From a bacterium (GTDB lineage Bacteria > Desulfobacterota > DSWW01), in contig JAUWSZ010000078.1 of the NCBI GenBank assembly GCA_030609865.1, positions 1 through 7,981 of the forward strand: DNA of 7,981 nt, given 5' to 3'. Numbering within the stretch: position 1 is the first letter of the stretch; each line of letters starts with the position of its first letter. A program made the position numbers and the translations under genes. The notes under the pieces were generated by a model, which did not search any database, was not told the origin of the DNA, and was given only the letters and a program-made list of their open reading frames with translations. Below are positions 1 through 7,981 of this stretch, piece by piece.

Positions 1-1469
1 CCCTGAAGTTGGGCGCGGTTCTCGTCCCCCTGAGCTACCGGATGACCGCAAAGGAACTGGAAAGGGTCATCCAAGACTGTAGTCCCTCGGCCCTGATCTT
101 TTCGGACTCTTTTCTCGAACTCTGCAAGGACCTCCCCCTGTGTTCAGCCGAAACTTCGACGGCAATCTTGATCGGGCCACCGACCCCGGGAATGACCCGC
201 TATGAAGAACTCCTCGAGCAAGCCGACCCGGAAACTCCTCAGACGAGGGTTTGCGAAGACGATCTCGCCTGCATCTCGTTCACGAGCGGCACGACGGGAT
301 TTCCCAAGGGAGTCATGTGGACCCATGGGACGCTTCTGGCCACCGTGCCGGACAACCCGTTTCCCGGCGACATATGCCGGCACAGCAGGCAGATGGTCCT
401 CGCACCGTCGTTCGTGGCCGGTGCGCTGATCCAACTCTTGAACGGGGTCTACAATGCGGCCACGCTGATCCTCCAGGACTTCGATCCTCCCGAGGTGATG
501 CGAACGATCGAACAGGAGAAGCCGACGCTGATGGCCAGCGCTGCGGTGATGCTTCGCTTGCTTGCCTCCATGCCGCAATCCGACCGTCGTAACACGAGCA
601 GCCTGAGGCGGATCTATTACGGAGGCGCCCCGATCGGATCGCACGAGGACTATCAGAAGATCAGGAAGGTCTTTGCCTGTGACCTTCAGGAAGGCTACGG
701 AGGTGCGGAGACCTGCATCCTCATCACCCGCCTGGACCCGGAGGACCACGAAGACGCGGAAACGGACGAAGGGGCGAAAAGGCTCCGGTCCGCGGGCCGG
801 GCCGCTCCGGGCACCCAGGTGAAGCTCGTCGGACCCGAAGGAGAGGAGGTGCCCCCGGAAGGCGGCGTAGGCGAGGTGGCTGTCAAGGCCCCGTGGGTGA
901 TGAAGGGCTACTGGAAGCGGCCGGAGGAGACCGCAAAGGTCTTCGACAGGGACGGATATTACCTCACAGGGGACATGGGGACCATGGACCAGGACGGATA
1001 TCTGTTTCTGGTCGAGCGAAAGGACGACATGATCAAGACCGGGGGGCTGAATGTCTATCCGAGTGAGGTGGAAGGGGTTCTTGTCTTGCATCCTGCAGTG
1101 GAAGAGGTGGCCGTAATCGGTATTTCTCACCCCAAATGGGAGACGGCCGTCGCAGCGGTCGTCAGGGCCAAACCCGGCAGGAGAGTCCCCGACGGAGAAC
1201 TTCGAGCCTTCAGCAAGGGCAAGATCGCTTCCTACAAAATCCCGAAGGCCTTCTTTACCACCGAGAGCCCCCTGCCCCGCTCCCCCCTGGGAAAGGTGCA
1301 GAGAAAGATGTTGAGAGAATCCTTCGCAACGGACGGGATCGTTCTCCGGGACGCGGAGGCCAAGGAAACGCCGGGCAGGCCCGTGTTCCGAGACGACCCC
1401 CTTCGCCACTGTCGCAGATGCGAGTTTCAAGAGATTTGCGAAAAATTCTGCACCAAGTATTTTGAGTAG
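1..1469 (+). CDS. AMP-forming acyl-CoA synthetase/ligase, 5' truncated by window edge, with Cys-rich C-terminal tail
   Basis: The protein activates a carboxylic acid with ATP to an acyl-adenylate and passes it to coenzyme A (ANL superfamily). The reading frame is open to the left edge, and the first visible residues (LKLGAVLVPLSYR) match the family's interior, so roughly 60-100 N-terminal residues are missing; the TTG at 9 is not a real start. Counting from that codon, the ATP-binding loop TSGTTGFPKG is at 92-101, GYGGAET at 229-235, the adenylate-binding TGD at 320-322, the hinge region ERKDDMIKTGG at 336-346 and the catalytic lysine of PLGK at 429. The fold should end near residue 445. A tail of about 40 residues follows, closing with cysteines at 468, 471, 477 and 481 (C-X2-C-X5-C-X3-C), which looks metal-binding and is atypical for the family. 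The substrate cannot be read from the sequence. It lies upstream of the acyl-CoA dehydrogenase genes but behind its own intergenic region with a promoter, so it may be a separate transcript. Confidence 0.93.
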   Translation, partial: LKLGAVLVPLSYRMTAKELERVIQDCSPSALIFSDSFLELCKDLPLCSAETSTAILIGPPTPGMTRYEELLEQADPETPQTRVCEDDLACISFTSGTTGFPKGVMWTHGTLLATVPDNPFPGDICRHSRQMVLAPSFVAGALIQLLNGVYNAATLILQDFDPPEVMRTIEQEKPTLMASAAVMLRLLASMPQSDRRNTSSLRRIYYGGAPIGSHEDYQKIRKVFACDLQEGYGGAETCILITRLDPEDHEDAETDEGAKRLRSAGRAAPGTQVKLVGPEGEEVPPEGGVGEVAVKAPWVMKGYWKRPEETAKVFDRDGYYLTGDMGTMDQDGYLFLVERKDDMIKTGGLNVYPSEVEGVLVLHPAVEEVAVIGISHPKWETAVAAVVRAKPGRRVPDGELRAFSKGKIASYKIPKAFFTTESPLPRSPLGKVQRKMLRESFATDGIVLRDAEAKETPGRPVFRDDPLRHCRRCEFQEICEKFCTKYFE

Positions 1470-1534
1470 CCGTATGTTTGCGCAACATTCAGGAACCACC
1501 TTCCATCGCACCCACGCCACATCTCCCGAAGGAG

Positions 1535-1581
1535 CCAACGGGCCGTTTCCTCGGCGAGGTTGGGTTTCATTCTGTCTTTTT
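1535..1581 (+). terminator. weak terminator-like hairpin after the ligase gene
   Basis: CCAAC at 1535-1539 can pair with GTTGG at 1559-1563. Inside it, GCCG at 1542-1545 can pair with CGGC at 1552-1555 around a six-base loop, leaving a small internal bulge. A T-rich stretch follows, but its T5 run (1577-1581) is about 13 bases past the stem, so this is not a classic Rho-independent terminator. Its position between a gene end and a new promoter is the main support. The rest of 1470-1610 shows no convincing gene. Confidence 0.25.
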
Positions 1582-1616
1582 CCATCTGCAAAATCCTTCT
1601 CGGCCGAAATATTAGG

Positions 1617-1644
1617 TTGACAAGGATTCCGTTTATGGAATAAT
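1617..1644 (+). promoter_or_regulatory. sigma70-type promoter upstream of the first acyl-CoA dehydrogenase gene
   Basis: A perfect -35 hexamer TTGACA lies at 1617-1622. After a 16-base spacer comes AATAAT at 1639-1644, which matches the -10 consensus at five of six positions. It sits in an AT-rich island that contrasts sharply with the GC-rich coding DNA on both sides. Transcription would start at about 1651, giving a leader of roughly 100 bases before the ATG at 1752. A second, weaker pair (TTGACT at 1661-1666 with TATTAA at 1683-1688) could also act. The call rests on sequence match alone. Confidence 0.5.
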
Positions 1645-1661
1645 ATCATATCTAATATGAT
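1645..1661. promoter_or_regulatory. candidate operator, perfect 7+3+7 inverted repeat
   Basis: ATCATAT at 1645-1651 and ATATGAT at 1655-1661 are exact reverse complements around CTA. The repeat starts directly after the proposed -10 element and covers the expected transcription start, where a bound repressor would block transcription. The size and symmetry suit a dimeric regulator of the TetR, GntR or MarR type, but no regulator gene is in the window, so the protein is unknown. Short dyads occur by chance in AT-rich DNA, which limits confidence. Confidence 0.4.
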
Positions 1662-1672
1662 TGACTGATTAG

Positions 1673-1687
1673 TAATATTATATATTA
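1673..1687. repeat. second AT-only dyad, 6+3+6
   Basis: TAATAT at 1673-1678 and ATATTA at 1682-1687 are inverted around TAT. The centre is 27 bases from that of the 1645-1661 dyad. It could be a second half of a regulatory region, but it consists only of A and T, so chance is a serious alternative. Confidence 0.2.
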
Positions 1688-1751
1688 AATTCGTCCGGCC
1701 GATGCAATCAGGGCAGGTCACGATTCCAAAAAGGCCAAAGGAAGGGTCCCC

Positions 1752-2930
1752 ATGGATTTCCGATTCTCCGAAGAGCAGGAGATGTTTCGCAAGACCATTC
1801 GAAGGTACATCAAGAAGGAATGCTCGGCCCGGAAAGAGCAGGAACTGGACGATCGGGAAGAGTTTCCAGAGGATCTCTTCCAGAAAATGGCTTCTCTCGG
1901 CTTCATGGGCGTCCTCCTGCCGGAAGAATACGGGGGGCAGGGAGGAAAGACCCTGGATGCGATCCTCTTGAACGAGGAACTCAGCTATGGAAGCCTTTCC
2001 TCTGCCGGGGCCTATGCCTACTCGAACCTCTACGGGGTGATCAAGATCCTTAACAACGGGACTGAGGAACAGAAACAGGAATTCCTCCCCAAGCTCGCCA
2101 CCGGTGAGGCCAAGGTTTCCCTGGCCTGCACCGAGCCGGACGCAGGCACCGGGATTGGTGCCATTCGAACGAGCGCCGTCGAGAACGGGGACGGCTTCGC
2201 AATCAACGGAACGAAGATCTTCATCAACAACGCCAACGTGGCGGACTACCTGGTGACGGCCTGCGTGACGGACAAGAAGGGGGAAGAGTACAAGAACATG
2301 TCCCTGTTCATCGTCCCCACGAACCAAGACGGGTGCCGGGCAACGCCGATCCGGAAGATGGGAAACCGAGCGGTTCCCTCTTGCGAGGTCGTGTTCGAGG
2401 ATGTGGCCGTCCCCCAGAGCAGCCTGCTCGGCGGGATGACCCAGATCAACCTGGGGTGGAGGGCCATGCGGAAGACCCTGGACATGGAACGGGCCATATT
2501 CTCCGCCGGGTGTGTGGGGCTCGCCCAGGCCGCCTACCAGGAGGCGCTCCAGTATGCAAAGACCCGAAGGCAGGGAGGGGTTCCGGTCGGAGACTACCAG
2601 GCCGTGATGCACAAACTTGCCGACATGACCATCAAGGTCCACACGGCAAGGCTGCTCGTGTACCACACGGGGTGGATGATCGACAACGGGTGGCCCGCCA
2701 CGGCAAACGGCGCCATGGCAAAGACCTATTCCGCGGACATCTGCAAGGAGGTTTGCCTCGACGGAATGCAGATTATGGGAGGGGCGGGCTACATCCAGGA
2801 ATCGAGCATGCAGCGGTACTTGCGTGAGGCCGTGCTGAACACGATCGTGGGCGGGACCAACGAAATCCAGCGAAACACGATCGGCATGGCCCTGGAGCTA
2901 GGCCTGCCTCGCCAAACACGGGAACGATAG
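1752..2930 (+). CDS. acyl-CoA dehydrogenase, IVD/LCAD-type active-site geometry
   Basis: This FAD flavoprotein would oxidise an acyl-CoA at the alpha-beta bond and pass electrons to an electron-transfer flavoprotein. At 392 residues it is full length. The N-terminal helical domain has the family signature PEEYGGQGG (57-65); the middle beta domain has LACTEPDAGTG (124-134), contacting the flavin; and the C-terminal helical domain has GGAGYIQESSMQRYLRE (343-359) and GGTNEIQR (367-374). The usual catalytic Glu of the short/medium-chain YEGT motif is glycine here (G367). A Glu is present in LDMER (E246), where isovaleryl-CoA and long-chain dehydrogenases carry their base, so the enzyme is probably active with that geometry. 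The ATG is preceded at six bases by a purine-rich ribosome site (about 1737-1745). It is the first gene after the 1617-1644 promoter and is followed by a 134-base repeat-bearing gap. The acyl substrate is not determinable. Confidence 0.93.
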   Translation: MDFRFSEEQEMFRKTIRRYIKKECSARKEQELDDREEFPEDLFQKMASLGFMGVLLPEEYGGQGGKTLDAILLNEELSYGSLSSAGAYAYSNLYGVIKILNNGTEEQKQEFLPKLATGEAKVSLACTEPDAGTGIGAIRTSAVENGDGFAINGTKIFINNANVADYLVTACVTDKKGEEYKNMSLFIVPTNQDGCRATPIRKMGNRAVPSCEVVFEDVAVPQSSLLGGMTQINLGWRAMRKTLDMERAIFSAGCVGLAQAAYQEALQYAKTRRQGGVPVGDYQAVMHKLADMTIKVHTARLLVYHTGWMIDNGWPATANGAMAKTYSADICKEVCLDGMQIMGGAGYIQESSMQRYLREAVLNTIVGGTNEIQRNTIGMALELGLPRQTRER

Positions 2931-2936
2931 CAAAGC

Positions 2937-2999
2937 AGGGGACAGGGACCAGGGGTCACATATCAGGGGTCAGGGTTCGGGGATCAGGGTTCAGGCCCC
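2937..2999 (+). repeat. degenerate tandem array of nine G-rich heptamers
   Basis: Reading in sevens from 2937 gives AGGGGAC, AGGGACC, AGGGGTC, ACATATC, AGGGGTC, AGGGTTC, GGGGATC, AGGGTTC and AGGCCCC. All nine units end in C, six begin AGGG, and one begins GGGG. Some pairs of neighbours repeat exactly at a 14-base period (AGGGGTCA at 2951 and 2965; TCAGGGTTC at 2970 and 2984). It fills about half of the 134-base gap between the first dehydrogenase and the radical SAM gene and encodes nothing evident. The array may be a slippage-prone simple repeat or a dispersed intergenic repeat family; only a genome search can tell. Confidence 0.7.
2966..2989 (+). other. potential G-quadruplex motif in the intergenic leader
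   Basis: Inside the heptamer array, four G runs of 4, 3, 4 and 3 bases are separated by loops of 3, 3 and 4 bases. This fits the standard pattern of four runs of at least three G with loops of one to seven. It is on the coding strand, so both the DNA and the mRNA between the dehydrogenase and the radical SAM gene could fold. A C-rich stretch at 2996-3006 could pair with the G runs instead. Folding and function are inferred. Confidence 0.4.
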
Positions 3000-3050
3000 T
3001 CCCCTCCTGAAAGCGGGTCGGTTCCAGGATTGCAGACCGAACAGGGAAAC

Positions 3051-3055
3051 AGGAG
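3051..3055 (+). promoter_or_regulatory. ribosome binding site that favours the ATG at 3065
   Basis: AGGAG at 3051-3055 directly abuts the ATG at 3056, leaving no spacer. It lies nine bases before the in-frame ATG at 3065, a normal distance. The second ATG is therefore the better start, which shortens the protein by three residues. Confidence 0.6.
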
Positions 3056-3064
3056 ATGGAAGGC

Positions 3065-4348
3065 ATGTATGAAATTGAGGAACTGCAGAAGAAATTCCCT
3101 CGGTACCCAAAGGGCAAGCTCATCCGCGCCGCCGTGCTTCGCGACGGGGTCAAGATCACGCCCAACCTGATCGACATCGCCTCCTGGGCCCTGCCCCAGA
3201 GCAACTGGGTGCTCGAGTACTCCCATTACAAGCACGCCCAGGAAAAGATCGAGGATTACATCAAAGACCAGCAACTCGACGAGGAGAGCGCGGATCTGGC
3301 CCGCCACGGCTGGGTGGAAACGCCCTCCGGATTCCGATTCAAGGATTTCACGTATATCCAGAACGGGTTCAACGACGAGAGTCCCTGGGAGGTCAAGACC
3401 GAATGGCTCGGCTCGACCATGTCGGTGGCCGACATGGGAGGGGAGCGGTACTTCCTGTACTACGGCGACGAACGGGTGGAGGAAATCATCTTCGAAGATC
3501 GCCCGCAGTGGCTGACCGGGAAGACCTCAGACGGGAAGACCTTTTCGAGCGTCATGCAGCTCATCTCTGCACAGGTCTTCAACGCCTGCGTGCTGCGGCA
3601 CTGCGAGTATTTCAACAACGACATGAGCTGCCGGTTCTGCTCGATGACCGGGGGGAGCAAGGCGCTCAAGGAGGTCGGGGTTCAGCATCGGATGGCCCTC
3701 AAGACGGAGCATGCGGTGGAGGCCTTCGAGGCGGCCCACAAAGAGACGGGCGTGAACATCATCCTATTGAGCGGAGGAACGCTCTTCGACCAGGACAAGG
3801 AGGTAGAGGCCTACTACAGGCTGGGAAAAGCCCTTGCTGAGAAGCGGGAGGAGCTCCGGGCGGAGACGTACATCCTGGCAGGAACGAGTGCTTTCCCGAA
3901 AGACAAGGCAAAGAAGCTCAATGACCTGGGCCTGGACTTGCTGATGTACGATCTGGAGGTGTGGGATCCGGAGGTCTTCAAGTTCGTCTGCCCCGGAAAG
4001 GCGGAGCACATCGGCAGGGACGAGTGGTTGAAGAGGCTCCTGGACGCTAGGGACGTCTTCGGAAAGGGCCGGGTGGGAACCAATTTCGTGTTGGGCACCG
4101 AGCTTGCGCAACCCGGGGGTTTCACGGACCTGGACAAGGCCCTGGACTCGTGGGAGGAGTGTTTCGAGTGGTGCCTTTCGAACGACCTCGTTCCCATGAT
4201 CACGATCTGGCAGCCTTCCGCGGGCTCCAAGTTCGAAGGCGCGAGAAACACCGCATCGATCGAGTACCTCCTCGAGGTGGGCGCCAAGCGAAGGGCCGCC
4301 ATGAAGAAGTACGACATGTACAGCCACTGCATCGATATGTGGAAATAA
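3065..4348 (+). CDS. radical SAM protein with expanded cysteine motif
   Basis: This 427-residue protein is probably a radical S-adenosylmethionine enzyme, using a 4Fe-4S cluster to make a 5'-deoxyadenosyl radical under anaerobic conditions. The cysteines are C175, C180, C189 and C192. The last pair, CRFC, with an aromatic residue before the final Cys, matches the end of the canonical CX3CX2C motif, but the preceding gap is eight residues (C180-X8-C189-X2-C192), with C175 upstream as a possible alternative ligand. LLSGGT (234-239) stands where radical SAM proteins carry GGE. A later stretch (YDLEVWDPEVFKFVCPGK, ending about 311) resembles the region of BioB/ThiH-like radical SAM proteins that recognises SAM. 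I do not recognise the N-terminal 170 residues. Other cysteines (C309, C366, C370, C422) might bind a second cluster. It sits between two acyl-CoA dehydrogenase genes, 17 bases before the second, so it probably acts on the same compound or matures a pathway protein. The reaction is unknown. Confidence 0.8.
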   Translation: MYEIEELQKKFPRYPKGKLIRAAVLRDGVKITPNLIDIASWALPQSNWVLEYSHYKHAQEKIEDYIKDQQLDEESADLARHGWVETPSGFRFKDFTYIQNGFNDESPWEVKTEWLGSTMSVADMGGERYFLYYGDERVEEIIFEDRPQWLTGKTSDGKTFSSVMQLISAQVFNACVLRHCEYFNNDMSCRFCSMTGGSKALKEVGVQHRMALKTEHAVEAFEAAHKETGVNIILLSGGTLFDQDKEVEAYYRLGKALAEKREELRAETYILAGTSAFPKDKAKKLNDLGLDLLMYDLEVWDPEVFKFVCPGKAEHIGRDEWLKRLLDARDVFGKGRVGTNFVLGTELAQPGGFTDLDKALDSWEECFEWCLSNDLVPMITIWQPSAGSKFEGARNTASIEYLLEVGAKRRAAMKKYDMYSHCIDMWK

Positions 4349-4350
4349 CA

Positions 4351-4357
4351 AAAGGAG
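4351..4357 (+). promoter_or_regulatory. ribosome binding site fixing the start of the second dehydrogenase
   Basis: AAAGGAG lies eight bases upstream of the ATG at 4366. The frame stays open back to 4150 inside the radical SAM gene, but that extension has no family similarity that I can see. This site and the position of the normal N-terminus settle the start at 4366. Confidence 0.8.
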
Positions 4358-4365
4358 CAAACACT

Positions 4366-5529
4366 ATGCTGGATACGCCCGATGGTCTGACTGCCGAAGA
4401 AGAGGCATTCCGGGATGAGGTGAAGACCTTTGCCAAACAGGAAATCATGCCCCTGGCCAGGCAGATCGACAAGGAGGACCTCATCCCGATGGAACTCCGG
4501 GAGAAGATGGCCAAGAAGGGCTGGTACGGCCTGCTCTGGCCGAAGGAGTACGGGGGATACGGCGGGAAGATCATCCATTTCTGCCTCGCCTCGGAACAGA
4601 TCGCATACGCCAGCGGGGGAGTGGGGGCCTCGTTCAACGCCACGGTCCTGTGCGGCGTACCGATCCTGTACTACGGCACCGAAGAACAGAAGCGAAAATT
4701 CGGCACGTCCTTGATCCGGGGCGATTACGTGGCCGGCTCGATCGGCATCACCGAGCCGGATGCGGGGTCCGACGTTTCCGCTCTTGCGACGAGTGCGGTC
4801 CGGGACGGAGACCAGTGGGTGGTGAACGGGAAGAAGCGCCACATCGACAATGTCGGCCCTTCCAACCTTCTCTCCTTCTGGGCGGTCACCGACCCGGACG
4901 CAGAGCCCAAGCACCGCGGCTTCAGCACCTTTGTCGTGGAAAGAGGCACCCCTGGTTTCGATACCCTGGTCACGCGCTACATCGGGCTCAAGGGCCTGGA
5001 CTGCGGGGAGATGCACTTCGACAACGTGAGGCTGCCGGCGGAAAACCTGATCGGGGAAGAGGGGAAAGGGTTCTACCACATCATGCGGCTCTTCGAGTTC
5101 GCACGCACGGGAGCAGGCGGATGGGGCGTGGGCACGGCACAGGCCTGCGTAGACGAAGCGATCGACTACGCCATGAACCGGGTGCAGTTCGGCAAACCGA
5201 TCATCAACCTGCAGGCCATTCAGATGATGATCGCCGACATGGTCATGGATCTCGAGTTGATGCGGATGCTCTCCTACCGTGCGGCCCGGATCGGAGATGC
5301 CGGCATGAAGGCAGACAGGGCGGTCACGGCAACGAAGCTCTTCTGCAACGAGGCCCTCTTCCGCGTTGCGAGTACGGCTCTGCAGATCCACGGGGCCAAC
5401 GGATACAGCGAAGACTACCCGATCGAACGGCACTTCCGCGACGCCCGGGTCCTGCCGATCGGCGAGGGGACCACCCAACTGATGAAGCTCCTGCTCACCC
5501 GGATCGAGTTGAAATCGCGGTACGCCTAG
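4366..5529 (+). CDS. acyl-CoA dehydrogenase, SCAD/MCAD-type active-site geometry
   Basis: This is a second full-length FAD acyl-CoA dehydrogenase of 387 residues. It shows PKEYGGYGG (59-67), the flavin-contacting GITEPDAGSD (127-136), W151-VVNGKK in the beta domain, RVQFGKPI (272-279) and HGANGYSEDYPIERHFRDAR (342-361). The C-terminal GEGT carries E367 at the place of the catalytic Glu of short- and medium-chain enzymes. The alternative site used by isovaleryl-CoA dehydrogenase is alanine here (A246). It is therefore not a duplicate of the 1752-2930 enzyme: the two are divergent and place the base in opposite positions, which suggests different acyl substrates or successive steps. It follows the radical SAM gene by 17 bases and precedes the LsrF homologue by 63. 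The substrate is unknown. Neither an electron-transfer flavoprotein nor its oxidoreductase is in the window. Confidence 0.94.
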   Translation: MLDTPDGLTAEEEAFRDEVKTFAKQEIMPLARQIDKEDLIPMELREKMAKKGWYGLLWPKEYGGYGGKIIHFCLASEQIAYASGGVGASFNATVLCGVPILYYGTEEQKRKFGTSLIRGDYVAGSIGITEPDAGSDVSALATSAVRDGDQWVVNGKKRHIDNVGPSNLLSFWAVTDPDAEPKHRGFSTFVVERGTPGFDTLVTRYIGLKGLDCGEMHFDNVRLPAENLIGEEGKGFYHIMRLFEFARTGAGGWGVGTAQACVDEAIDYAMNRVQFGKPIINLQAIQMMIADMVMDLELMRMLSYRAARIGDAGMKADRAVTATKLFCNEALFRVASTALQIHGANGYSEDYPIERHFRDARVLPIGEGTTQLMKLLLTRIELKSRYA

Positions 5530-5592
5530 ACTATGCTCTGCCTGTCACAAGACCACCTTCCGACTCGCGAATAGAGGTAAGGAGAGAGAATC

Positions 5593-6507
5593 ATGCCAGA
5601 AGAGGACAAGGGAAAAGAGGCAAAAGAGTTTTTCACCGACGTTCCCCAGGCAACACCGGGTTTCTTCCTGAAGGGATCGGGCGCCCTGGATTGGGGAATG
5701 CAGAACCGGCTGGCACGCATCTTCAACCCGAAATCCGGGCGAGCCCTGATGCTGGCCGTGGACCACGGGTACTTCCAGGGACCGACCACGGGGCTGGAGC
5801 GCATCGACCTCTCCATCGTCCCCCTCCTTCCGTATGCGGACGCCCTGATGCTCACCCGGGGCATCCTGCGCACGGTCATCCCCTCCTCGTTCACCAAGGC
5901 CGTCGTCTTGAGGGCCAGTGGCGGCCCGAGCATCCTGAAGGAACTCTCGAACGAGAAGCTGGCCGTGGACATGGAAGATGCGACCCGCTTGAACGTCTGC
6001 GCACTGGCCGTGCAGGTCTTCATCGGCGGGGAGTATGAAACCCAGTCGATCGAGAACATGACCCAGCTCGTGGACCTCGGAAACCAGTACGGCATTCCTG
6101 TGCTCGCCGTTACGGCCGTCGGCAAGGATATGGCCCGGGATGCGCGCTACTTCCGCCTTGCCTGCAGGATGTGCGCCGAGCTGGGCGCCCACTTCGTGAA
6201 GTCCTACTACATAGACGACGGGTTCGAAACGGTCACGTCTTCCTGTCCTGTGCCGATCGTGATGGCGGGAGGCAAGAAGCTCCCCGAACTGGATGCACTG
6301 ACCATGGCGTACAACGCGGTCGATCAGGGCGCCTCCGGGGTGGACATGGGTCGGAATATCTTCCAGTCCGATGCCCCGATCGCCATGATCAAGGCGGTCG
6401 GAAAGGTCGTGCACGAGAAGATGAAGCCCAAAGAAGCCTACCAGCTCTTCAAGGAGCTGAAGCAGAAGGAGTTGGGCAAGAAGAAAAAGAAGAAGAAAGC
6501 GAAATAG
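5593..6507 (+). CDS. lsrF: LsrF-like thiolase (3-hydroxy-5-phosphonooxypentane-2,4-dione thiolase family)
   Basis: The protein is strikingly like enteric LsrF, a DeoC/LacD-fold class I aldolase relative that transfers an acetyl group from the phosphorylated autoinducer-2 diketone to CoA, releasing dihydroxyacetone phosphate. Near-identical blocks include GALDWGMQ (30-37), [16 protein letters not shown] (57-72), LTRGILR (87-93), VGKDM (176-180) and [15 protein letters not shown] (246-260). The Schiff-base lysine falls at K203 (FVKSYY), the number I recall for E. coli LsrF. AGGKKLP (225-231) and GVDMGRN form the phosphate-binding side. Of 304 residues, the last nine or so form an odd lysine-rich tail (seven lysines in a row, then AK). 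A strong ribosome site AAGGAGAG (5579-5586) precedes the ATG. The LsrE-like gene starts four bases after the stop. With acyl-CoA genes upstream, its true substrate may be a longer-chain analogue. Family membership is firm; the AI-2 role is not. Confidence 0.92.
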
Positions 6508-6511
6508 AGGC

Positions 6512-7237
6512 ATGTCGAGCAAGACAGCTGCGGAGCTTCTGGCCGAAATCTGCCCAACGATCAGCGTGGGCATGCTGACTGCAGACCTGCTTTCCCTCGG
6601 CTCCGAGCTTGCCATCCTGGAACAAACCGACGTCGAGCTCCTCCACGTGGACGTGATGGACGGGTGCTTCTGCCCGATGATGACCGTCGGCCCTCCCCTG
6701 ATCAAGGCCATGAAGACCTCCCTCCTGAAGGACGTGCACCTGATGATCCAGGACCCCCTCGAAAAAATCGAGGACTACGTGGCTGCGGGCGCAGACATGA
6801 TCACCATCCACGCCGAATCCTGCGTGCACATCCACCGGGTCCTCCAGCACATGGCGAGCCTCGAGAACGTCAATGATCCGGCGAGGGGCCTGCTCAAGGG
6901 CGTGGCCCTGAACCCGGGCACGCCTCTCGAGGTCCTCGATCCCCTACTCGAGGACCTGGACATGGTCTTCCTCCTGGCCATCAACCCCGGCTGGAAGGGG
7001 CAGAAGTTTCAGCCATCCATCCCGCGACGCATCGAAAAGCTCAGAGAGATGACGGCAGGTGCGCAGAAGAAGATCTTCGTCGGCCTCGACGGCGGGATCA
7101 CACGCAACAACATCGCCGAAGTGGCCAGGCTTGGTGTGGACATCGTCGTTACGGGGAGCGCGGTATTCGACGGCAAGGCACCCGTGGAGAATGCCAAGTT
7201 CATGCTCGACACCCTGCGGAAAAATTCGCCTTCCTAG
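6512..7237 (+). CDS. ribulose-phosphate 3-epimerase family protein, LsrE-like
   Basis: This is a 241-residue TIM-barrel epimerase, probably metal-dependent, inverting a hydroxyl-bearing carbon of a ketose phosphate. The four metal/catalytic ligands of ribulose-phosphate 3-epimerase are all present: H45 and D47 in HVDVMDG, H76 in DVHLM and D193 in LDGGI. NPGWKGQKF (158-166) and VTGSAVF (213-219) are the phosphate-side motifs. The N-terminal extension before ISVGM, together with CFCP and TVGP (52-60), resembles my recollection of LsrE from the Salmonella lsr operon more than housekeeping Rpe. The neighbouring LsrF-like gene supports this. The stop of that gene is four bases upstream and the only GAGG (6507-6510) is too close to the ATG, so translation probably depends on coupling. 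It may act on the LsrF substrate precursor. A pentose-phosphate Rpe remains possible. Confidence 0.88.
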   Translation: MSSKTAAELLAEICPTISVGMLTADLLSLGSELAILEQTDVELLHVDVMDGCFCPMMTVGPPLIKAMKTSLLKDVHLMIQDPLEKIEDYVAAGADMITIHAESCVHIHRVLQHMASLENVNDPARGLLKGVALNPGTPLEVLDPLLEDLDMVFLLAINPGWKGQKFQPSIPRRIEKLREMTAGAQKKIFVGLDGGITRNNIAEVARLGVDIVVTGSAVFDGKAPVENAKFMLDTLRKNSPS

Positions 7238-7248
7238 GGAGACACTCT

Positions 7249-7981
7249 ATGCGAGTAGCCATGTGGTACAACAACAGGGACGTGCGTGTGGAGGAGATGC
7301 CGGTCCCGAAGATCGGCCCCGGAGAGCTCCTTCTCCGCATCGAGGCCAGCGGGCTATGCGGCAGCGACGGCATGGAGTGGTATCGGCTTCACAAGGCCCC
7401 CCTGGTCCTGGGTCACGAAGTGGCAGGAGAAGTGGTCGAGGTCGGAAAAGACGTACAGACCTTTCAGGTGAGCGACCGGGTGTCCGTTGCCCACCACGTT
7501 CCCTGCAACACATGCCACTATTGCCTGAACGGCCACCACAGCGCGTGCAAGACCCTGCAATCAACAAATTTTGACCCCGGCGGCTTCTGTGAGTTCGTTC
7601 GGGTCCCGTCGATCAACGTGGACCGGGGCGTGTTCAAGTTCGGCGAGGAGGTTTCCTACGAAGATGCGACCTTCGTCGAGCCCCTGGGTTGCGTGATTCG
7701 GGGGCAGAGGATCGCGAGGCTGCGTCCGGGGAACACCGTGTTCGTCGTCGGATGCGGCATCTCGGGCCAGCTCCACGTCCAGGCGGCCCGGACGATGGGT
7801 GCGGGCCGGATCATCGCGATGGACACGATTCCTTTCCGCCTGGAGATGGCCAAGAGATTCGGCGCCGATACCGTCATCCCAACGGACCGGGACGTTCCGG
7901 AACAGCTGCGGGAGCTGAACGACGGCATGCTCGCGGACCTGGTGATCATCTGCCGCGCCAAATGGATCCCCCAGGCCCTCC
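7249..7981 (+). CDS. zinc-dependent medium-chain alcohol/polyol dehydrogenase, 3' truncated by window edge
   Basis: The first 244 residues of a medium-chain dehydrogenase/reductase are visible; the family is usually about 340-350 long. Catalytic-zinc residues are C37 (in CGSD) and H56-E57 (in GHE), with E144 in EPLGC as in sorbitol and threonine dehydrogenases. The structural-zinc lobe has C86, C89, C92 and C100. The nucleotide-binding fold starts at VVGCGISG (166-173), and D192 at the end of the second strand indicates NAD rather than NADP. The substrate is likely a secondary alcohol of a polyol or sugar-like compound. AGGGAGA (7236-7242) overlaps the previous stop and gives a good ribosome site six bases before the ATG, so the gene belongs to the same operon. 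It could make the ketone needed by the LsrF-like thiolase, which is inference from position. Confidence 0.92.
   Translation, partial: MRVAMWYNNRDVRVEEMPVPKIGPGELLLRIEASGLCGSDGMEWYRLHKAPLVLGHEVAGEVVEVGKDVQTFQVSDRVSVAHHVPCNTCHYCLNGHHSACKTLQSTNFDPGGFCEFVRVPSINVDRGVFKFGEEVSYEDATFVEPLGCVIRGQRIARLRPGNTVFVVGCGISGQLHVQAARTMGAGRIIAMDTIPFRLEMAKRFGADTVIPTDRDVPEQLRELNDGMLADLVIICRAKWIPQAL

Follow-up and report, generated by a model that had tools for sequence, protein, structure and literature searches.

Introduction

The closest described relative of the enzyme considered here is LsrF of Escherichia coli and Salmonella (model NF006081; PDB 3gkf, 3glc, 3gnd and 4p2v), whose thiolase activity was reportedly described in a PNAS paper of 2014. 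Here, an LsrF-type gene and its surroundings were analyzed in a stretch of 7,981 nucleotides from a bacterium of the Desulfobacterota (GTDB lineage DSWW01; contig JAUWSZ010000078.1, positions 1 to 7,981), referred to as the window. The gene is followed by genes for a ribulose-phosphate 3-epimerase (RPE)-like protein and a zinc-dependent dehydrogenase, and we give a probability of roughly one half (0.52) to the reading that the three constitute a small carbohydrate-phosphate module, separate from autoinducer-2 (AI-2) signalling and from the acyl-coenzyme A (acyl-CoA) genes upstream. The window protein is like the enterobacterial LsrF in passing the family model, in its ligand and catalytic residues and in its N-terminal extension, whereas it differs in belonging to another clade, in having no lsr genes nearby and in its zinc dehydrogenase and RPE partners.

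For E. coli LsrF, K203 and D57 are named, H58, R254, G226, G227 and G253 are given as phosphate ligands, and D251 is proposed as the substitute for the catalytic tyrosine of the nearest DhnA-type aldolases, which is not conserved in LsrF (PMC2728841). LsrB is treated as a marker of AI-2 reception (PMC2561040), and Sfum_2464, the lsrF of Syntrophobacterium fumaroxidans, has been called an AI-2 receptor (PMC10787695). Two sugar-phosphate systems are also comparable. RhaEW, a class II aldolase fused to a short-chain dehydrogenase/reductase (SDR), is an L-rhamnulose-1-phosphate aldolase/lactaldehyde dehydrogenase that formed neither dihydroxyacetone phosphate (DHAP) nor lactate when NAD+ was missing, a result interpreted as coupling by its authors; LsrF is not mentioned in the main text of that paper (PMC3870299). 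The DHAP shunt salvages 5-deoxyribose with a kinase, an isomerase and a class II aldolase (PMC6079011). A search of open-literature titles and abstracts, which covered the long result lists in part and had most subscription journals outside its scope, returned no paper in which LsrF homologues are described beside dehydrogenase genes.

The LsrF-type protein

The LsrF-type gene (5593..6507, + strand) encodes a thiolase/class I aldolase of the DhnA/DeoC superfamily with 304 amino acids. The protein scored 503.2 bits on NF006081, passing the cut-off of 297 by 206 bits, and matched the E. coli LsrF structures 3gkf and 3glc over residues 4-290 (E = 1.6e-119). By this alignment its numbering is that of LsrF, and D57, H58, K203, G226, G227, D251, G253 and R254 are all present. 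The N-terminal domain-swap extension (~25 residues) is present as well, the 3gkf alignment starting at residue 4. An earlier note on this DNA, made from the sequence alone, had described an LsrF-like protein with K203 and long conserved blocks, and this assignment was confirmed.

The residues were followed through an alignment of 132 proteins, consisting of the window protein, 111 proteins from LsrF loci (designated L, and their genomes G) and 20 from a protein search. D57, H58, K203, G226, G227, G253 and R254 are invariant in all 132, and D251 is found in 121; of the remaining proteins, ten shorter forms have N and one has A. L096-L108 and L116-L119 lack the N-terminal extension in the part of each that was aligned. 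The shorter LsrF-like proteins of L099-L108, with N at D251 and an aligned part without the extension, are 44-52% identical, and seven of the ten adjoin the same zinc dehydrogenase family.

By tblastn, the window LsrF is 63-67% identical to four enterobacterial copies. Fourteen alignment columns (e.g. 87, 143, 146 and 175) separate the four enterobacterial lsr proteins from 104 environmental ones; they were rejected as evidence on the substrate and are taken to track ancestry, because the enterobacterial side consists of four close relatives and the LsrF of an lsr operon at L033 shows the environmental letters. The protein search gave at least 8000 relatives at E ≤ 0.001. Among the 120 matches listed, close homologues with 78-99% identity (P0001-P0031) were followed by a tier at 72-79% that included two shorter close ones, and many of these 120 are named "AI-2 aldolase" or "3-hydroxy-5-phosphonooxypentane-2,4-dione thiolase".

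Partner genes of LsrF relatives

The neighbourhoods of LsrF relatives were investigated at 80 loci, the best 80 of at least 575 from a contig scan with the LsrF alignment. Their flanks differ in length, and neighbours were called by tblastn (E ≤ 1e-12) against reference proteins. The LsrF proteins of L001 and L002 are 94 and 95% identical to that of the window and those of the remaining loci 70-78%, and the records span Thermodesulfobacteriota, Deltaproteobacteria, Acidobacteriota, Planctomycetota, Actinomycetota, Verrucomicrobiota, Lentisphaerota and others. A zinc dehydrogenase lies on the same strand within 700 bp of LsrF at 29 of the 80 loci. At 36 loci, a RhaEW-type class II aldolase/SDR, encoded as one fused gene or as two, lies no more than 3.5 kb away, and 19 of these have RPE as well. 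RPE alone accompanies LsrF at five loci (three of them, L014, L061 and L077, with less than 1.3 kb left downstream), RPE with DhaK/DhaL at one, DhaK at one and an lsr operon at one (L033). Either of the two oxidoreductases is present in 51 of the 58 loci that have at least 1.5 kb on both sides. When matches within 1.5 kb of LsrF (223 kb in total) were compared with those at 3-10 kb (651 kb in total), the zinc dehydrogenase was found 30 times near versus 0 far, RPE 26 versus 0 and the aldolase/SDR 37 versus 2. The pairing of LsrF with these genes is conserved. As read by eye from the gene lists, 19 of 28 LsrF-dehydrogenase directons have no third gene, and the window order of LsrF, RPE and zinc dehydrogenase unites both partner habits. 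The order at L002 is LsrF, dehydrogenase, P-II and ammonium transporter; at L001, a DUF3604 protein gene and LsrF are followed by genes sized like P-II and an ammonium transporter.

A second sample was not chosen by similarity. Among 297 genomes from the phylum of G002, 29 have full-length LsrF (E ≤ 1e-110), with the zinc dehydrogenase beside it in 20 (one convergent, one 639 bases off) and the aldolase/SDR in three. LsrF occurs in 8 of 294 genomes from the phylum to which G066 belongs (G066 carries L009 and is recorded as Planctomycetota), six with the order DhaK-DhaL-LsrF, one with an SDR and one with RPE at a contig end. An LsrF-like protein at E ≤ 1e-60 was found in 6 of 398 genomes of the phylum of G084. 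The DhaK-DhaL-LsrF order, seen in two Bacteroidota plasmids and the six Planctomycetota genomes (L111, L123 and L198-L203), is a third standing partner type.

This distribution bears on the possibility that the protein is a housekeeping class I fructose-1,6-bisphosphate (FBP) or related aldolase, its LsrF name being a nearest-model label only. The DhnA superfamily fold would suit such a role, as would the ribose and ribulose 5-phosphate bound by E. coli LsrF (PMC2728841) and the presence of class II FBP aldolase (PF01116) in only 36 of 50 related genomes, with no match in 14 and weak matches in frames of ~440 amino acids in G001 and G002. Against this, the occurrence of LsrF is patchy at the thresholds used (29/297, 8/294 and 6/398 genomes), the recurring partner genes are not glycolytic, and G001 has a second DhnA-type protein, 41% identical. 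The catalytic tyrosine and the Ala at LsrF position 251 that go with a class I FBP aldolase of the DhnA type were not found either: the window protein has D251, and in our own reading its alignment has a gap opposite the tyrosine of ADH synthase. We therefore consider this explanation unlikely.

Some loci have wider carbohydrate contexts. A rhamnose isomerase gene is present at L017 and L056, within LsrF-RPE-aldolase/SDR clusters, and rhamnulokinase-like genes are present in the clusters of L017, L049 and L020 (347-457 bits, below the cut-off of 528). At L110 and L112, LsrF stands with a class II aldolase (fused to an SDR in L110), an FGGY kinase, a glycerol-3-phosphate dehydrogenase/oxidase and a sugar ABC transporter, and L125 matches the same gene set. 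A Rhizobiales locus that comprises aldolase, glycerol-3-phosphate dehydrogenase and kinase genes has been mentioned as a putative Lsr system (PMC3420918), and the contexts of L110 and L112 resemble it. Genes of the 2-oxoacid dehydrogenase E1 type occur within 8 kb of LsrF at L004, L021, L025, L037, L042 and L079, those of L037 and L042 being on the other strand, and L025 has E2 too.

An aminotransferase I/II gene lies near LsrF at L173, L176 and L193, with AhpC/TSA-like and KASIII-like proteins at L173 and L176 as well. The three loci have no dehydrogenase partner and their context is possibly biosynthetic. The aminotransferase and KASIII-like genes, which are on the strand of LsrF, would agree with an enzyme working in the synthetic direction, joining DHAP to an acyl unit in an aldol or Claisen reaction, and the Planctomycetota DhaK-DhaL-LsrF order would supply the DHAP. 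Such contexts are, however, absent from the window, L001 and L002, and the rhamnose and sugar-transport contexts point to catabolism, which makes a synthetic direction or a biosynthetic route improbable here.

The zinc dehydrogenase and the epimerase

The zinc-dependent medium-chain dehydrogenase gene (7249..7981, + strand) runs off the window, which holds its 5' part (244 amino acids). Both the catalytic and the structural zinc motifs are present, and the nearest solved relatives, obtained with the 92% identical L002 copy as query, are sorbitol dehydrogenase, ketose reductase and L-threonine 3-dehydrogenase. At E ≤ 1e-60 the dehydrogenase was found in five of nine related genomes and not in the other four, of which G072, G073 and G092 have LsrF with RPE and the aldolase/SDR, and G089 has LsrF with RPE plus a second LsrF copy in an lsr operon. 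The identities of LsrF and the dehydrogenase co-vary over pairs of 49 loci (Spearman 0.66; non-independent pairs, with at least four genomes represented twice). The zinc dehydrogenase, which the earlier note did not mention, proved to be the informative neighbour of the window LsrF.

The epimerase gene (6512..7237, + strand, 241 amino acids) starts four bases after the end of LsrF (6508-6511), as had been noted before, and ends 11 bases before the zinc dehydrogenase gene. Its best-matching models are those of ribulose-phosphate 3-epimerase (TIGR01163, 189.8 bits with a cut-off of 212.6; NF004076, 173 bits with a cut-off of 165). It belongs to the PF00834 TIM-barrel family and has conserved H, D, H and D motif positions, which we take to be the metal ligands. 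It is 52-67% identical to 21 of 25 RPE copies from LsrF loci and 38-48% identical to the other four; one of these four, from L061, is a more distant copy, the LsrF-adjacent copy of L061 being 69% identical. Each of nine related genomes has a less similar Rpe-like copy, and the other Rpe-like copies of these genomes are 32-43% identical to the window epimerase: at E ≤ 1e-20, G001, G002, G060, G062 and G067 each have a 37-43% copy and no other, and G072, G073, G092 and G089 have an LsrF-linked copy (46-65%) plus others (32-42%). At least 19 of 26 RPE copies, including that of the window, have NPGW where 1rpx has NPGF. Judged from these sequences, the epimerase is probably of the Rpe type and belongs to a subfamily of its own that travels with LsrF. 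It shares PF00834 and its motifs with ribulose-phosphate 3-epimerase, LsrE and allulose-6-phosphate 3-epimerase, from which the LsrF-linked subfamily sets it apart. The label "LsrE-like", given to it in the earlier note, was rejected: the protein is 32% identical to Salmonella LsrE and scored 133.5 bits on the PRK14057 epimerase model (cut-off 530), on which Salmonella LsrE itself scores 601.4 bits.

Relation to AI-2 signalling

The lsrF gene has been reported to be a good predictor of other lsr genes (PMC3420918); in contrast, lsr genes surround LsrF in one of our 80 loci. No lsr gene, be it for LsrK, LsrR, LsrACDB or LsrG, was found among the seven open reading frames (ORFs) of the window, in line with the earlier observation that an lsr-type transporter, kinase and regulator are missing. 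An lsr system just beyond the right edge was looked for in the relative L002, where P-II and ammonium transporter genes were found instead of lsr genes. Among the genomes of the first 50 of the 80 loci, LuxS was found in none (the control rings in 5 of 14 named genomes) and LsrB at E ≤ 1e-20 in one, the genome of L033; neither had a match in the two closest genomes. In the sample of 297 genomes from the phylum of G002, LsrB at E ≤ 1e-40 was matched in a single genome (G588, 38% identical), which is not one of the 29 LsrF carriers; 31 further LsrF stretches had no LsrB match. As most records are metagenome-assembled genomes (MAGs) of unstated completeness, single absences are weak and count only in bulk. 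In bulk, these counts show that lsr genes are rare around LsrF relatives.

The lsr operons seen were those of Klebsiella, Enterobacter, Salmonella, an unannotated E. coli record and a Lacticaseibacillus plasmid with annotated lsrK. In addition, positions 1-9672 of L033, from a deltaproteobacterial MAG, hold an lsr operon in which LsrK-, LsrA-, LsrC-, LsrD- and LsrB-like genes precede LsrF; by accession, the same assembly has a second LsrF, with RPE (L060).

A quick maximum-likelihood tree of the 132 aligned proteins was calculated with SH-like approximate likelihood ratio test (SH-aLRT) support, no bootstrap and a midpoint root. The four enterobacterial lsr proteins form one set (SH-aLRT 95) that joins alphaproteobacterial, Bacteroidota and Lacticaseibacillus proteins (10 rows, 89; some branches are long). 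The window protein was placed outside this clade, in a 16-row set (98) elsewhere in the tree, near Acidobacteriota proteins, many of which have RPE or aldolase/SDR neighbours. The LsrF of L033 falls in the environmental part of the tree although it stands in an lsr operon, which implies either a further origin of lsr use there or an exchange of the gene. Loci of like context group together on the tree (34 label changes, against 72.3 on average after shuffling), a pattern that shared descent would produce.

These results bear on whether the window enzyme serves genuine AI-2 degradation, cleaving 3-hydroxy-5-phosphonooxypentane-2,4-dione (P-HPD) that stems from AI-2 taken up by the cell; the remaining lsr genes would then lie elsewhere in the genome. 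Its catalytic residues are identical to those of E. coli LsrF, and the operon of L033 indicates that an environmental-type enzyme can serve there. Nevertheless, the scarcity of LuxS and LsrB and the position in the tree disfavour this role, which we regard as highly improbable. A use of the LsrF reaction outside quorum sensing, as the earlier note had proposed, is well supported by the LsrB, LuxS and lsr operon counts and by the separate clade.

Relation to the acyl-CoA genes

Upstream of LsrF and on the same strand, the window has two acyl-CoA dehydrogenase genes (1752..2930 and 4366..5529) on either side of a radical SAM gene (3056..4348; NF045502, 198.9 bits with a cut-off of 125), as had been described. 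From this arrangement the earlier note suggested that the enzyme is an LsrF variant that cuts a longer diketone phosphate, with the resulting acyl-CoA going straight to the two dehydrogenases. LsrF chemistry does yield acyl-CoA (PMC6410053), and the second dehydrogenase gene ends just 63 bases 5' of LsrF. In the neighbourhoods, however, no acyl-CoA dehydrogenase was found within 1.5 kb of LsrF at any of the 80 loci, and a single one (33% identity, opposite strand, 3.7 kb away) was found within 10 kb; 31 further LsrF stretches had no match. In the density comparison of near and far flanks, acyl-CoA dehydrogenase matches numbered 0 versus 1, and those of radical SAM and of acyl-CoA ligase 0 versus 0 each; neither of the latter two was found near LsrF at the 80 loci. 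Acyl-CoA-ligase-like matches with 27-34% identity occur in 4 of the 31 further stretches (L180, L185, L186 and L189), three on the other strand. The LsrF flanks of L001 and L002 contain no acyl-CoA dehydrogenase, and G001 and G002 gave 85 and 47 matches (fragments included) to the LsrF-adjacent dehydrogenase of the window, of which the best-scoring share 38 and 36% identity with it. Acyl-CoA dehydrogenases are so common in these two genomes that a chance neighbour is unsurprising. Of the earlier interpretation, the general claim of a use outside quorum sensing is supported and the specific link to the acyl-CoA dehydrogenases is not. On these counts, acyl-CoA linkage was rejected as the organizing idea and the longer-diketone explanation is very unlikely; the two dehydrogenases and the radical SAM protein probably lie outside the LsrF module.

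Proposed reactions

In the proposed module of LsrF, epimerase and zinc dehydrogenase, the epimerase would first set or equilibrate the configuration at C3 of a ketose phosphate, next to the carbonyl. The zinc dehydrogenase would then oxidize the free secondary hydroxyl at C4, giving a 2,4-diketo-3-hydroxy sugar phosphate, of which LsrF may hold the DHAP half via K203 and cut the C3-C4 bond with CoA to DHAP and an acyl-CoA. The substrate, the direction and the oxidation-first order are inferred. LsrF requires a 2,4-diketone phosphate, and a dehydrogenase is therefore the predicted commonest partner. When the formulae were worked out, C4 oxidation of 1-deoxyxylulose 5-phosphate or of 5-deoxyribulose 1-phosphate gave exactly P-HPD. 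As the known LsrF substrate is one two-electron oxidation away from either deoxy sugar phosphate, both are natural first candidates, with acetyl-CoA as product. 6-Deoxyhexuloses, e.g. rhamnulose 1-phosphate, would yield lactoyl-CoA. Where LsrF and the dehydrogenase stand as a pair, with no kinase or transporter gene beside them, this points to a phosphate from inside the cell.

In the other contexts, this C3-C4 bond would be the target of the class II aldolase, in a substrate of the same kind. RhaEW and the related PRK08324 proteins resemble the proposed module in that their genes are the alternative LsrF partner (36/80) and in that they would cut the same C3-C4 bond, and differ in being absent from the window, which has the zinc dehydrogenase instead. 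The NAD+ dependence of RhaEW would also suit oxidation before cleavage. With the DHAP shunt, the module would share the 5-deoxyribulose 1-phosphate type of substrate and the DHAP product; the shunt proceeds by aldol cleavage to an aldehyde, whereas oxidation and thiolysis to acetyl-CoA are proposed here. No isomerase of the DHAP-shunt type was found among the 25 families listed, no search aimed at MtnA or MtnK having been made.

Several observations weigh against a carbohydrate-phosphate module of these three genes. Seven of the 80 loci have no partner on the counted strand and within the counted distance, including L013 with its zinc dehydrogenase on the other strand, and 6 of the 29 LsrF carriers in the phylum of G002 have neither oxidoreductase (L001, L173, L176, L177, L193 and L194; L193 ends 19 bases from LsrF). 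L001 has no dehydrogenase beside LsrF, a 47% identical homologue being on another contig, and L002 has LsrF and dehydrogenase without RPE, so that the three-gene order of the window was seen once. In 6 of 8 LsrF-bearing Planctomycetota genomes, LsrF comes after DhaK-DhaL instead. The dehydrogenase and the epimerase could act downstream of LsrF or on another substrate, and a classical aldolase activity (retro-aldol, without CoA) would be compatible with the sequence; the PF01116 counts given above point the same way. Finally, the 63-base gap and the lack of a terminator-like site in it make co-transcription of the second acyl-CoA dehydrogenase with LsrF possible.

A broader hypothesis can be put forward tentatively and taken as a whole is doubtful. 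LsrF would be a widespread non-signalling cleavage enzyme, a ketose phosphate being oxidized first and then cut with CoA to DHAP and acyl-CoA without a free aldehyde. The partners would vary (zinc dehydrogenase, RPE with aldolase/SDR, DhaKL), the AI-2 operon would be one late borrowing, and in anaerobes the LsrF-dehydrogenase pair, with no kinase or transporter alongside, would salvage an internal phosphate (e.g. 1-deoxyxylulose 5-phosphate or 5-deoxyribulose 1-phosphate) from radical SAM waste.

Other features of the window

All seven ORFs scanned in the window are on the + strand. The first encodes an acyl-CoA ligase (AMP-binding; 3..1469) whose 5' end is cut by the window edge; family models identified it as well as the two acyl-CoA dehydrogenases. 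It is separated from the first acyl-CoA dehydrogenase gene by a gap of 282 bases (1470-1751), the second half of which is AT-rich by eye; from that gene onward the intergenic gaps are 125, 17, 63, 4 and 11 bases. The best promoter-like site of the window (1617..1644, + strand; 11 of 12 consensus bases, with TG before the second hexamer) precedes the first acyl-CoA dehydrogenase. A weak promoter-like site (5509..5537, + strand; 9/12) lies at the end of the second one and ends 55 bases before the LsrF start. Four promoter-like sites were found in the window versus a shuffle mean of 1.6, and shuffles also yield sites like that at 5509..5537. The window scan gave no terminator-like site between the second acyl-CoA dehydrogenase and LsrF, and scans against viral contigs and plasmid DNA gave no matches.

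The radical SAM protein (variant_rSAM model) sits between the two acyl-CoA dehydrogenases. It had no match at E ≤ 1e-60 in the 297 genomes of the phylum of G002, a search without a positive control that proves little.

Implications

The earlier observation of an LsrF-type gene outside an lsr operon is real, but neither the LsrE label nor the link to the acyl-CoA genes holds. The non-signalling interpretation is retained, with partner genes that suit it better than those first proposed. LsrF-derived names get read as evidence of AI-2 signalling. In the window and in many environmental bacteria the gene stands next to genes of sugar processing rather than of signalling, so the LsrF homologue probably splits sugar phosphates as an ordinary enzyme, and the name it commonly bears misleads readers of genomes. 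If the pairing with a dehydrogenase constitutes a pathway, central metabolism would gain a CoA-dependent, aldehyde-free cleavage of ketose phosphates, and the wider LsrF family would have a testable primary function.

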